Source of the DNA: Martinezella lusitana
GTDB taxonomy: Bacteria; Pseudomonadota; Alphaproteobacteria; Rhizobiales; Rhizobiaceae
DNA length: 64,000 bases
Direction: 5' to 3'
NCBI RefSeq assembly: GCF_016901135.1
Contig: NZ_JAFEVL010000062.1
Location: 186,001 to 250,000 of the forward strand
Shown here one piece after another: positions 39,984 to 51,656 of the stretch. How positions within the stretch are numbered: the stretch's first letter is position 1; every line of letters begins with the position of its first letter. The notes beneath the pieces are model-generated. The model was not told where the DNA came from. It saw only the letters and a list, made by a program, of their open reading frames with translations, and ran no database searches. Position numbers and translations under genes: made by a program.

Positions 39984-41456
39984 ATGGCGCTTGGTTTCAT
40001 CAAAAAAGTCTTCACCTTCGGCCGTGAAAAGCCGGCGGAAGAGAAAGCGCCTGCGGAGGTCATTGCGCCGGATGTATCCGCTCCGGTGCAGGAAGCGCCT
40101 GTGGAGCCTTCCGTTGCATCCGAGCCTGCGTCGCCCCCCTCTGTCCCTTCGGGACATCTCCCCCACGAGGGGGGAGATCGTTTGGAGGATGCCGCGCCAT
40201 CTCAGCAAGACCATCAACCGGCTGAGCAAGAAGATGTCGTTGTTTCGCATGAAGTTGAGGCTTCCGAGCCAACCACAGACACAGACAATGAAGTTGCAGC
40301 TCTGCCGGAGCAAGCTGCGGATACAGACGCAGATTTGACCTCGGAAGAGGCCTCCATCGAAACGATCTCCCCCCTCGTGGGGGAGATGTCCGACAGGACA
40401 GAGGGGGGTGACGAAGGTGCAGCAGACGCGGACCTAGCGTTGAAAGACACCGACACCACTCCCATCCTCCCCAGAGGCTTCGCCACCAACATCCCCGAAT
40501 CCACCCCCGAAGTCGCAAAGCAGAAGCTTTCCTGGTTCCAGCGCCTGCGGGCCGGCCTTGCGCGGACCTCGTCGCAGCTCACCGGCCAGATCGCCGCGCT
40601 CTTTACCAAGCGCAAGCTTGACGACCAGACGCTGCAGGATCTGGAGGATCTGCTGATCCAGGCCGATCTCGGCGTCGAGACGGCGATGCGGGTGACCGAC
40701 ACGTTGGCCTCCGAGCGCTATGGCAAGGATGTGACGAGTGAGGACGTCGGCCGCATCATGGCGCAGGAAATCGCCAAGGTGCTGAAGCCGGTCGCCAAGC
40801 CGCTGCAGCTCGATCTCAGCCACAAGCCGCATGTCATCCTCGTCGTCGGCGTCAACGGCACCGGCAAGACGACGACCATCGGCAAGCTGGCGGCCAAGCT
40901 CTCCGGCGCCGGGCTCAAGGTCATGGTTGCGGCCGGCGATACATTCCGTGCCGCTGCCATCGAGCAGCTGAAGATCTGGGCCGACCGCACCAAGTCGGAA
41001 TTCATCGGCACCAAGATCGGTGCGGATGCCGCCGGCCTTGCCTTTGATGCCTTCCAGCAGGCCAAGGCCAACAAGAGCGACGTGCTGATCATCGATACCG
41101 CCGGCCGCCTGCAGAACAAGGCGGAGCTGATGGCCGAGCTCGAAAAGATCGTGCGCGTGCTCGGCAAACTCGATCCGGACGCGCCGCATACCGTGCTGCA
41201 GACGCTGGATGCGACGACCGGCCAGAATGCTTTGAACCAGGTGGAGATCTTCCGCAACGTTGCCGGCGTCAACGGGCTGATCATGACCAAGCTCGACGGA
41301 ACGGCGCGCGGCGGCATCCTTGTGGCGATCTCGGCCAAACACAAGCTGCCGGTCTATTTCATCGGCGTCGGCGAGGGTGTAGACGATCTCGAGCCGTTCG
41401 AGGCCGAGGATTTCGCCAACGCCATCGCAGGGACAGGTGCCGGAAGCAGCCAATGA
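39984..41456 (+). CDS. ftsY: SRP receptor FtsY
   Basis: A 490-residue SRP-receptor GTPase. The N-terminal A region (residues 1-165) is acidic, with runs of Glu, Pro and Ala. The NG domain follows, with the P loop [10 protein letters not shown] at 289-298, [21 protein letters not shown] and [10 protein letters not shown]. It docks Ffh-ribosome complexes at the inner membrane. Two inverted repeat copies at 40134-40180 and 40362-40412 encode residues about 51-66 and 127-143 in frame. Without that insertion the A region would be close to 100 residues shorter. Confidence 0.96.
40134..40180. repeat. A-family repeat end inside ftsY (left)
   Basis: CCCCCCTCTGTCC...GGGACATCTCCCCCACGAGGGGGGAGATCG matches the ends of the 45629-45826 element. 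It is read in frame as [16 protein letters not shown]. Confidence 0.85.
40362..40412. repeat. A-family repeat end inside ftsY (right, inverted)
   Basis: GATCTCCCCCCTCGTGGGGGAGATGTCC...GACAGAGGGGGG is the inverted partner of 40134-40180. It is read in frame as [15 protein letters not shown]. Confidence 0.85.
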
Positions 41457-44947: not shown

Positions 44948-45607
44948 TCAATCAGTCGTGTTGCGCAAGGCGAGTGCTGCGGCCGCCGGGCCGAGCACGG
45001 CGAAGAACAGGGTGAGGGCGATCAAGATTAGGAAAGGCGGCAGGAACGGTTGCGGCCCTTCGACCGCGGCATAGGTCGCGCTGACGCCGAAGATCAGCAC
45101 TGGGATGGCGAGCGGCAGCACCAGGATCGACACCAGCAGCCCACCGCGCGGCAGCGCCACGGCAACGGCTGCGCCTACCGCGCCGATGAAGGTGATCGCC
45201 GGCGACCCGACGAGCAAGGTCAGGGCCGTGGCGGCGATCGCTGTTTCGCTCATATTCATAAAGAGACCGAGCAGCGGTGAGGCAATCACCAGCGGCAGCC
45301 CGGTCGCCACCCAATGCGCGGCGCATTTGACGAGAACCGTGAGGACCAGCGGCGTCTCCTGCATGACGAGCAGATCAAGCGAGCCGTCGTCGCGCTCGGC
45401 CTGAAACAGACGGTCGAGCCCGAGCAGGCAGGCAAGCAGTGCGCCGATCCAGACGATGGCCGGGCCGATGCGCGACAGGAGTTTTAGATCCGGGCCGACC
45501 CCGAAGGGTATGACGGCGACGACGGTGAGAAAGAACAGCACGCCGATCAATGCACCGCCGCCGGAGCGCACCGAGAGTTTGAGGTCGCGGAGGAAGAGGG
45601 CGGTCAT
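44948..45607 (-). CDS. ccmB: Heme exporter protein CcmB
   Basis: A 219-residue membrane subunit of the CcmAB ABC complex. MTALFLRDLKLSVRSGGG opens it. About six hydrophobic segments follow, with RLFQAERDDGSLDLLVMQETPL in between. It couples ATP hydrolysis by CcmA to release of heme-loaded CcmE. ATG 45607 is chosen as the family start; the frame is open into the repeat element upstream. Confidence 0.95.
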   Translation of the reverse strand: MTALFLRDLKLSVRSGGGALIGVLFFLTVVAVIPFGVGPDLKLLSRIGPAIVWIGALLACLLGLDRLFQAERDDGSLDLLVMQETPLVLTVLVKCAAHWVATGLPLVIASPLLGLFMNMSETAIAATALTLLVGSPAITFIGAVGAAVAVALPRGGLLVSILVLPLAIPVLIFGVSATYAAVEGPQPFLPPFLILIALTLFFAVLGPAAAALALRNTTD

Positions 45608-45628
45608 GGGTAGCACCGAGTATGCCGC

Positions 45629-45826
45629 GCGATACCCCCCTCTGTCCCTTTCGGGACATCTCCCCCACAAGGGGGGAGATTGGTAGCTTGCGGCCCGCGC
45701 CTGCTCTGATCAAAAATCGAATCTGTAGAAACTGTGTTGATTGGTTTTGGAATATGGTGCCGCGAACTCCCAACGATCTCCCCCCTTGTGGGGGAGATGT
45801 CACGAAGTGACAGAGGGGGGTATCGC
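45629..45826. mobile_element. A-family MITE-like element with 18 bp terminal inverted repeats
   Basis: GCGATACCCCCCTCTGTC at 45629-45646 is repeated perfectly inverted as GACAGAGGGGGGTATCGC at 45809-45826. Each end continues into a palindromic CATCTCCCCC-CACAAG-GGGGGAGAT part. The 198 bp unit has no coding capacity. It sits between ccmA and ccmB, which are usually contiguous. No obvious target duplication is visible. Confidence 0.75.
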
Positions 45827-45854
45827 AGTATCGGCAGACTCCGCACTTTCGAAT

Positions 45855-46502
45855 TCATCCCCAAACCCCTTCACTCACCCCGGCAAACCCGGTCATCCGC
45901 ATTTCCTGCACATTATTTAATCCCAGCGGCTGATGCGTCGCCGCGAGGACGATGCCGCCCTTCTTCTGATGTGCGGAGATCAGGTCGGTGAAGAGTTGAT
46001 CGGCCGAAGTGTCCAGCGCCGCCGTCGGCTCGTCGAGGATCCAGATCGGGCGATGGGCGACCAGGAGTTTCGCGAAGGCGATTCGCCGCTGCTGGCCGGC
46101 CGAGAGATAGCCGAAGGGGAGGTGGGTGATATCGGCAAGTCCGACGGCGTCCGCCGCCGCCTCGATGCCGAGGCCGGCGCCGCCTGGCATGTCGCCAAGG
46201 AAGGCTTTCCAGAAGGTGAGGTTTTCGGCCACCGTGAGCTCGGATTTCATCGCATTGCGGTGGCCGAGATAGTGGCTGACCTCGCCGGGTAAGCGGTCCG
46301 AATCGCCGTCGGCGCCTATGAATGTGACACGGCCCTTTTCCTGCCTCAGAAGACCGGCCACGACACGCAAAAGTGTCGACTTTCCGGAGCCGTTGCGGCC
46401 GGTCAGAATGAGGGCGCCGCCACCCTTCAAGCCAAAGGAAACGTTCGAGAAAATCAGGTCTTCACCCCGCCTCGCCGCCAGATTTTCAGCGCTTAGATGC
46501 AT
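45855..46502 (-). CDS. ccmA: Heme exporter ATP-binding protein CcmA
   Basis: A 215-residue ABC ATPase. Walker A is GRNGSGKS at 35-42, the signature region LSAGQQRRIAFAKLL, and Walker B IWILDEPTAALD. LGHRNAMKSELTVAENL is typical of CcmA. It is upstream of ccmB but separated from it by the 198 bp element, which may affect readthrough to ccmBCDG. Confidence 0.96.
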   Translation of the reverse strand: MHLSAENLAARRGEDLIFSNVSFGLKGGGALILTGRNGSGKSTLLRVVAGLLRQEKGRVTFIGADGDSDRLPGEVSHYLGHRNAMKSELTVAENLTFWKAFLGDMPGGAGLGIEAAADAVGLADITHLPFGYLSAGQQRRIAFAKLLVAHRPIWILDEPTAALDTSADQLFTDLISAHQKKGGIVLAATHQPLGLNNVQEMRMTGFAGVSEGVWG

Positions 46503-51238: not shown

Positions 51239-51286
51239 CCACCCCCTCTGTCCCTTTCGGGACATCTCCCCCACAAGGGGGAGATC
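51239..51286. repeat. A-family repeat end
   Basis: CCACCCCCTCTGTCCCTTTCGGGACATCTCCCCCACAAGG is nearly identical to the left end of the ccm element. The next 110 bp also align with that element's spacer (GGTAACTTGC, ATCGAGCCTG, GAAAC, GGTTTGGA, CAAACTCC). Confidence 0.8.
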
Positions 51287-51425
51287 GGTAACTTGCTGCA
51301 CGCACTTGCCTCAAGTGGACATCGAGCCTGCTGAAACCTCACATTGTTGGTTTGGAGAGGGCGATCCGCAAACTCCTCCTTGTAGGCAGGGGGATCGCAT
51401 GTGAGATGAGATCGTTGCCACGCAA

Positions 51426-51571
51426 CCCCTTCTCCCCTTGGGGAGAAGGTGCCGCCCTTCGACAAGCTCAGAGGGCGGATGAGGGGGGTACCAAGAGCAC
51501 AAAGCCGATGGATTCAAAGCGACTAGCCCCCTCATCCGACCCTTCGGGCCACCTTCTCCCCGAGGGGAGAT
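51426..51571. repeat. B-family inverted doublet
   Basis: Left half 51426-51488 (CTTCTCCCCTTGGGGAGAAGG, CCCTTCGACAAGCTCAG, GGATGAGGGGGG). Right half 51525-51571 (CCCCCTCATCCGACCCTTCGGGCC, CTTCTCCCCGAGGGGAGATGG). It has the same layout as the doublet at 20644-20833, in opposite orientation. Confidence 0.8.
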
Positions 51572-51610
51572 GGAGCTTACGGCACTGGCATGCCCCATAT
51601 GCAATTGCCT

Positions 51611-51656
51611 GCCCATGTGGGGGAGATGTCACGAAAGCGACAGAGCGGGGTATGAG
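51611..51656. repeat. A-family repeat end (inverted)
   Basis: GCCCATGTGGGGGAGATGTCACGAAAGCGACAGAGCGGGG is inverted relative to 51239-51286. Together they may be the two ends of one A-family copy interrupted by the B doublet. Confidence 0.7.

Follow-up and report, generated by a model that had tools for sequence, protein, structure and literature searches.

The stretch of DNA analyzed here, a window of 64 kb from Martinezella lusitana, carries the genes ccmA and ccmB on its minus strand, and between these two genes lies an insert of 247 bp that contains a palindromic repeat unit. The insert separates the stop/start overlap of the two genes and leaves both codons intact. Further copies of the unit lie elsewhere in the window, one of them inside the gene ftsY. 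The features are listed below, with the type of evidence given in brackets.

39984-41456, plus strand: ftsY, with an in-frame copy of the unit at 40128..40414, plus strand (end matches, translation, domain search).
44948..45607, minus strand: ccmB (ORF; PF03379).
45604..45607, minus strand: ATGA with the ccmB start, one of the two that flank the insert (sequence; in 25 of 115 loci the two are one overlapping ATGA).
45608..45854, no strand: whole insert between the ccmB start codon and the ccmA stop codon, 247 bp (ORF coordinates; missing in the relatives with an ATGA overlap).
45618..45841, no strand: probable full repeat unit including the outer arms, ends approximate (flank similarity among unlinked copies, which reaches background at about 22-32 nt beyond the C-run).
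45629..45826, no strand: unit as drawn in the initial annotation, 18-bp perfect ends plus core (repeat and end-match searches).
45644..45657, plus strand: small local hairpin H1 of the left arm, GTCCC/GGGAC (sequence; local covariation in 55 units).
45658..45680, plus strand: local hairpin H2 of the left arm, ATCTCCCCC-ACAAG-GGGGGAGAT (repeat search).
45681..45775, no strand: 95-nt spacer common to other copies (sequence comparison of copies).
45776..45798, minus strand: local hairpin H2 of the right arm (repeat search).
45799..45811, minus strand: small local hairpin H1 of the right arm, GTCAC/GTGAC, unlike the left arm (sequence).
45855..45858, minus strand: ATGA with the ccmA stop, the second flanking copy (sequence, ORF coordinates).
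45855..46502, minus strand: ccmA, ABC transporter ATPase (ORF; PF00005).
51242..51653, plus strand: interrupted copy of the unit, nested or mosaic with a CTTCTCCCC-type hairpin repeat, R1 (similarity search, sequence).

The initial annotation had drawn a unit of 198 bp with perfect inverted ends and inner palindromes. The ends at 45629-45646 and 45809-45826 are indeed exact 18-bp inverted copies, and a repeat search recovered the inner palindromes as the local hairpins at 45658-45680 and 45776-45798. When up to 3 mismatches were allowed, the 18-bp ends had 4 matches in the 64-kb window versus 0.06 expected. The repeat search also yielded terminal arms of 22 and 31 nt that are 95% and 97% complementary, and both terminal arm segments combined give a near-perfect arm of about 52 nt per side. 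Terminal inverted repeats, which are a feature of MITEs, are thereby present in the unit. Each arm contains the small hairpin H1 and the larger hairpin H2, and since the two arms are nearly inverted copies, a single long hairpin of the whole unit is possible as well. The proposed RNA structure between ccmA and ccmB is borne out at the level of prediction by a strong fold of the minus-strand RNA (-124.4 kcal/mol, z -11.9 versus shuffles), and the predicted fold of the plus-strand DNA reached z -13.4 versus shuffles.

The core and the ends of the 198-bp unit are thus real, but the true unit is longer, as outer arms of about 20 nt are common to unlinked copies. More specifically, the flanks of unlinked copies resemble each other over about 22 nt beyond the C-run, and further out they drop to background level. 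Of the proximal flanks 20 of 38 agreed at 12 or more of 18 positions with one of two outer-arm consensus sequences, derived from the same flanks on which they were scored, versus 1 of 304 distal control stretches. Similar outer arms accompany several of the ftsY copies. The description of the unit as non-coding holds for the ccm copy and fails for at least two of the others, which are coding.

A genome-wide search revealed that the whole unit is repeated, including the spacer and not the ends alone. The source genome (7.43 Mb) holds 18 other full-length copies that are 69-83% identical to the ccm unit, and a dispersed, multi-copy unit that includes the interior is another feature of MITEs. Besides these, there is an interrupted copy at 51.2-51.65 kb of the window and the in-frame copy in ftsY, whose end pair at 40128-40414 was missing from the initial annotation. 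The recurrence of the spacer at 51.3 kb, which had been pointed out before, corresponds to a match of 51242-51309 to unit bases 8-76 at 90%; it is followed by further spacer sequence, then another repeat, and then the far arm at 51612-51653. The H2 hairpins of the source genome form 16 pairs when up to 2 mismatches are allowed, and the starts are 116-120 nt apart in 15 of them and 209 in the ftsY pair. Codon periodicity, which inspection had suggested for the spacer of the 19 copies in this genome, was not significant (6670 of 20000 permutations gave a value as large).

Matches to the unit were found in 33 of the 36 other genomes of the same genus and in none of the 24 genomes sampled from the order's other families (E<=1e-3). 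In a wider sample of the family 103 of 199 genomes matched, representing 67 of 109 genera (E<=1e-6); outside the genus, the matches listed were mostly single arms of about 50 bp. The genomes of the genus without a match to the unit family are G001, G025 and G029. Of their ccm loci (L093, L044 and L090, respectively) two keep the ATGA overlap and that of G025 has a 40-nt gap. The ftsY loci of G025 and G029 are free of the unit, and at the cobN site all three have only 9 nt.

The junction between ccmA and ccmB was compared for 115 loci, which include 22 identical pairs and hence amount to 93 distinct loci (L172, which has no ccmA on its contig, was left out). That the two genes are normally contiguous agrees with the 4-bp ATGA stop/start overlap in 25 loci, an ancestral-looking junction that also provides the empty sites. 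The unit is present in 50 loci, in long junctions and either alone or together with other repeats, and one motif of it occurs in a 51st locus, L154, which is short. In 19 loci only other hairpin families occur, namely the CTTCTCCCC-type and the CCCCTCCCCAACC-type, for which we coined the names R1 and R3. The remaining 20 junctions comprise 17 short gaps and 3 long ones without the searched motifs. The site is therefore not conserved in all relatives but polymorphic.

On a tree of ccmA+ccmB the presence of the unit changes at least 20 times; for the group that has the unit only there are 19 changes, 15 of which are forced by supported branches. The nearest neighbour of the source locus, that of R. 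lusitanum P1-7, encodes a CcmB with 99% identity, and the two ccm loci carry different hairpin families. The unit of the source genome is 87% identical to the ccm copy of G013 and 82% to that of G010, where the corresponding values for ccmA are 82% and 88%. Orthologous ccm copies are thus not always closest to each other, which suggests recombination. Among 79 named loci a motif was found at ccmA-ccmB in 46, whereas the control regions ccmB-ccmC, ccmC-ccmG and the 500 bp upstream of ccmA gave 0 of 79 each. The family labels rest on short motifs, which by chance also occur inside ccmA (3 of 79 loci), with 0 of 79 for ccmB and ccmC. The ccmA-ccmB site is not unique in this respect, as R1 or R3 motifs lie within 400 bp downstream of ccmG in 18 of the 79 loci.

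A conserved regulatory RNA of the ccm operon, in the form of an attenuator or a processing hairpin between ccmA and ccmB, could account for the very stable predicted structure with its paired base changes and for its recurrence at the same mRNA position in many species. Such an RNA is nevertheless quite unlikely, since the unit also occurs at unrelated loci, 25 of the 115 ccm loci are without a spacer, others carry unrelated hairpins, and no Rfam family reaches the gathering score at the ccm unit. In fact, other species have unrelated hairpin families at the junction or nothing at all, which argues against any conserved function that is specific to ccm. A purine-rich stretch upstream of the ccmB ATG (scored with a loose motif) was found in 2 of 33 loci with the unit only versus 7 of 19 overlap loci, and its rarity in the inserted loci would imply that the loss of coupling may matter.

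The unit was also found within reading frames. The ftsY gene of the source genome encodes the SRP54 GTPase and N domains, and the unit resides in the acidic N-terminal part. Of 37 ftsY loci 30 were read, and 25 of these 30 have the unit in frame. At fourfold sites the third-base identity in 13 ftsY loci is 0.91 for both arms versus 0.69 for the NG domain, and in 25 loci it is 0.86 and 0.85 for the arms versus 0.66. Third-base identity in the spacer between the arms is only 0.48 and 0.46. The right arm of ftsY (L196-L222) has two lineage-specific forms, SDRTEGG and PGRAEGG, and the several amino-acid changes between them jointly keep the local DNA hairpin paired.

A comparable situation exists in cobN, where the copy of the source genome (L026) lies in frame at about 1453-1656 of L232 (G000:C22:537000-540300). 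Residues 517-594 of its CobN (78 residues) face a single residue of the solved CobN chain 9uk9_A, which corresponds to about 231 extra nt. We read the junction in 50 of 60 genomes (30 loci returned by the search and 20 fetched). The unit is present in 26 of the 50, with an insert of 168-258 nt, a fraction that is not an unbiased rate because the first 30 loci were continuous matches to a unit-bearing query. At the same position 2 loci have R1-like and 5 have R3-like inserts, again in frame, and the assignment is confirmed by their DNA similarity to the ccm inserts; 5 of the 50 have only 9 nt and 12 are either short or remnants. The third-base identity of the right arm is 0.95 (17 loci) and 0.88 (8 loci) versus 0.57 and 0.54 downstream, where, as for ftsY, the loci were selected by peptide. 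In-frame placement inside conserved genes, a feature reminiscent of the Rickettsia palindromic elements, is thus present in ftsY and cobN, and the ccm copy is intergenic.

The high third-base identity of the arms has two readings: either the hairpin is constrained as a nucleic acid, or the arms are renewed by conversion or replacement. The low identity of the spacer fits the latter. Additional information came from 55 distinct units, which were kept by their fit to a pattern and include orthologous copies. A local H1 stem of at least 4 bp is present in 105 of their 110 arms, although the base pairs vary (pair 2 is T-A in 73 and C-G in 32 arms; pair 4 is C-G in 61, A-T in 34 and G-C in 10). The left and right H1 stems differ in 35 of the 55 units, and for positions 2-4, 160 of 165 cells show local pairing in both arms versus 127 of 165 in which pairing across the arms would be possible. 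The changes keep the local hairpin intact, more than the long inverted repeat. At the ccm loci the spacer identity is 0.45-0.50 versus 0.98-1.00 for H2, the latter being inflated by the restriction to those 24 ccm loci with the unit that conformed to a strict pattern.

Gene conversion or recombination with other copies might make the arms look conserved in the absence of selection on the hairpin. We consider this a possibility of real weight, although we would not put it first, and it is compatible with the unit being a dispersed repeat. It would be in line with arm variants that follow lineage (such as the two peptides in ftsY), with spacers that diverge strongly at the very sites where H2 hardly varies, and with sites that swap hairpin families. 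It is harder to reconcile with the frequent differences between the left and right arms of one unit, each of which is still locally paired. Taking the ccm, cobN and ftsY data together, we tentatively propose that several unrelated hairpin families of Rhizobium serve as cassettes that replace one another at a small number of fixed and tolerant addresses. These would be the ATGA overlap of ccmA and ccmB and one codon position in cobN, and for the unit there would be a third address, again coding, in ftsY. Where these addresses are coding the cassettes would be in frame, and it would be the nucleic-acid hairpin and not the peptide that is conserved, even inside an essential gene.

For 18 copies of the source genome we looked for the flanks in R. 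lusitanum P1-7 and in two relatives, and aligned 20 stretches, most of them picked for a short-looking gap. These sites contain full units, remnants in which part of one end survives, or mini-hairpins made up of the two ends only, and at the site of L010 a relative has an R1-type repeat instead. Loss by internal deletion is common. As several to many of the 'empty' sites are deletion remnants, gain and loss are often inseparable, and the list of sites alone is no proof of recent gains, nor of any single one. Derivatives of the two ends only were observed in L028 (at about 291-326, C43:31224-31259 of the source genome; TACCCCCCTCTGTCCCGAAAGGGACAGAGGGGGGTA) and in L184, and these probably arose by deletion between the two arms. 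At the site of L009, where the source genome has the unit, about 1.1 kb lies between the flanks in G006 (C53) and G010 (C73), and R. lusitanum P1-7 has a short remnant.

The initial annotation had suggested that the whole unit moves, and had proposed a search for a RAYT-type or other transposase with matching ends. The repetition of the full unit with its spacer and the polymorphic sites support movement, but neither a mobiliser in the source genome nor a target duplication was found. The Y1 (RAYT) transposase domain PF01797 had 0 matches in the source genome, where the same search was positive in 5 of 14 control genomes. An insertion sequence with matching ends was likewise not found in this genome; the ends fall in short units, save two lone matches with one mismatch. 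For 19 copies the longest direct repeat, scored 16-48 nt outside the core, averages 3.68 nt versus 3.83 for mispaired controls. The pair of ATGA sequences at ccm could have been retained by selection and need not have been duplicated. We infer transposition from copy number and polymorphic sites only, since no RAYT, matching insertion sequence or target duplication was found. The unit is for the same reason described as MITE-like and not classified as a MITE, given that a target duplication and, within the source genome, an autonomous partner were looked for and not found.

These searches bear on two known modes of mobilization. In a REPIN or BIME, two inverted REP hairpins are moved by a RAYT (Y1) transposase, and the two inverted hairpins of the unit, their nearly fixed gap and the approximately 20 copies would suit such an element. 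The lack of PF01797 in a search that did detect the domain in control genomes, together with a conserved spacer and ends that form one long inverted repeat, makes this origin very improbable. A classical MITE that is moved by an IS630-type transposase and inserts at TA, with the ends CCCCCCTCTG...CAGAGGGGGG, is unlikely as well. TA or CA precedes most cores, L045, L122, L126, L138 and L153 read GCTA-CCCCGT, and at that place TA-[core]-TG or TA before CCCCG is found in L146, L135 and L091. Against this, the outer arms beyond the TA are common to unlinked copies, which makes the TA an internal part of the unit and raises the possibility that those sites are internal deletions. In addition, the two IS630-type matches of the source genome (L174, which is complete, and L175, which has a stop) showed no motifs of the unit within the 3.2-3.4 kb read.

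Two other candidates were rejected. An apparent TA duplication at the ccm sites of the R. leguminosarum group was withdrawn on account of the same outer arms. A composite element was considered for two pairs of complete units, one on C43 with a separation of 1.15 kb and one on C2 with a separation of 2.6 kb, but inspection by eye revealed ordinary genes and no transposase between them. Also by eye, the C43 pair (L286, C43:453100-454950 of the source genome) brackets carboxymuconolactone-decarboxylase-like and Rrf2-like genes, and the C2 pair (L287, C2:98100-101400 of the source genome) a sugar-type regulator and a transaldolase.

In our view the unit very probably belongs to a dispersed, non-autonomous, palindromic repeat family of the Rhizobiaceae, MITE-like and RIME-like, with a length of about 225-247 bp. 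It may have been spread by a transposase that acts in trans, although none was recognised in the source genome, and it could have entered the ATGA overlap of the ccm genes without damage to either protein. Its persistence between ccmA and ccmB would then mainly reflect that an insert exactly at the ATGA leaves both proteins intact, and it would be followed by vertical descent and decay through deletions between the repeated arms. The effect is likely to be mild: the insert would end the start/stop coupling from ccmA to ccmB and add a very stable hairpin to the mRNA. Thus, rather than a dedicated ccm function, a changed CcmA:CcmB ratio or mRNA stability is the probable consequence.

The turnover of repeats at the same addresses in dozens of species constitutes a set of natural replicates. 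It makes direct tests possible of the effect of a broken start/stop overlap on a membrane complex (CcmA:CcmB). The same holds for the question of whether selection acts at the nucleic-acid level on mobile hairpins that are translated, as in FtsY and CobN. It also carries a warning, as protein comparisons and gene annotation in rhizobia follow the repeats at such sites and not the function of the protein.

Palindromic mosaics known as RIMEs, the Rhizobium-specific intergenic mosaic elements reportedly described by Osteras et al. in 1995, are by their description a candidate relative of the unit. At the chvG loci of six genomes other than the 1995 strains (3.3 kb each), chvI-chvG being what we take to be the type locus of RIME, no motif of the three hairpin families was found. 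According to the accessible part of PMC2573895, rhizobial genomes contain dozens of intergenic repeats that are conserved in sequence and secondary structure, and RIME and the Sm and A-B-C repeats of Sinorhizobium share this property with the unit. In-frame coding copies, which the unit does have, are not mentioned in that part of the text. In the literature searched (subscription papers lay outside it), and as far as the accessible texts go, we found no description of in-frame rhizobial hairpin repeats in FtsY or CobN.

The bacterial MITEs, of which RUP, NEMIS and ERIC are examples (PMC3733652; see also the review PMC10969869), are in the accessible parts of these sources small elements with inverted terminal repeats and no transposase that yield hairpin RNA and lie near genes. 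The unit resembles them in all of this, but differs in that no target duplication or parent insertion sequence was found and in that its ends are compound local hairpins. With the REPIN or BIME it shares the paired inverted hairpins and the spacer, whereas the conserved spacer, the single long imperfect palindrome and the lack of a RAYT set it apart. The Rickettsia palindromic elements, which are described in the accessible part of PMC10969869 as palindromic repeats in frame in conserved genes, resemble the unit in this behaviour; they belong to a different host order, and in the present case one position of a single gene is shared by several hairpin families that are not related to each other, and copies between genes are frequent. 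That rhizobia contain a dispersed palindromic repeat is in itself to be expected. The surprising part would be the addresses that are common to hairpin families unrelated to one another, and the occurrence of the unit in frame within FtsY and CobN, where its arms are conserved at synonymous sites.
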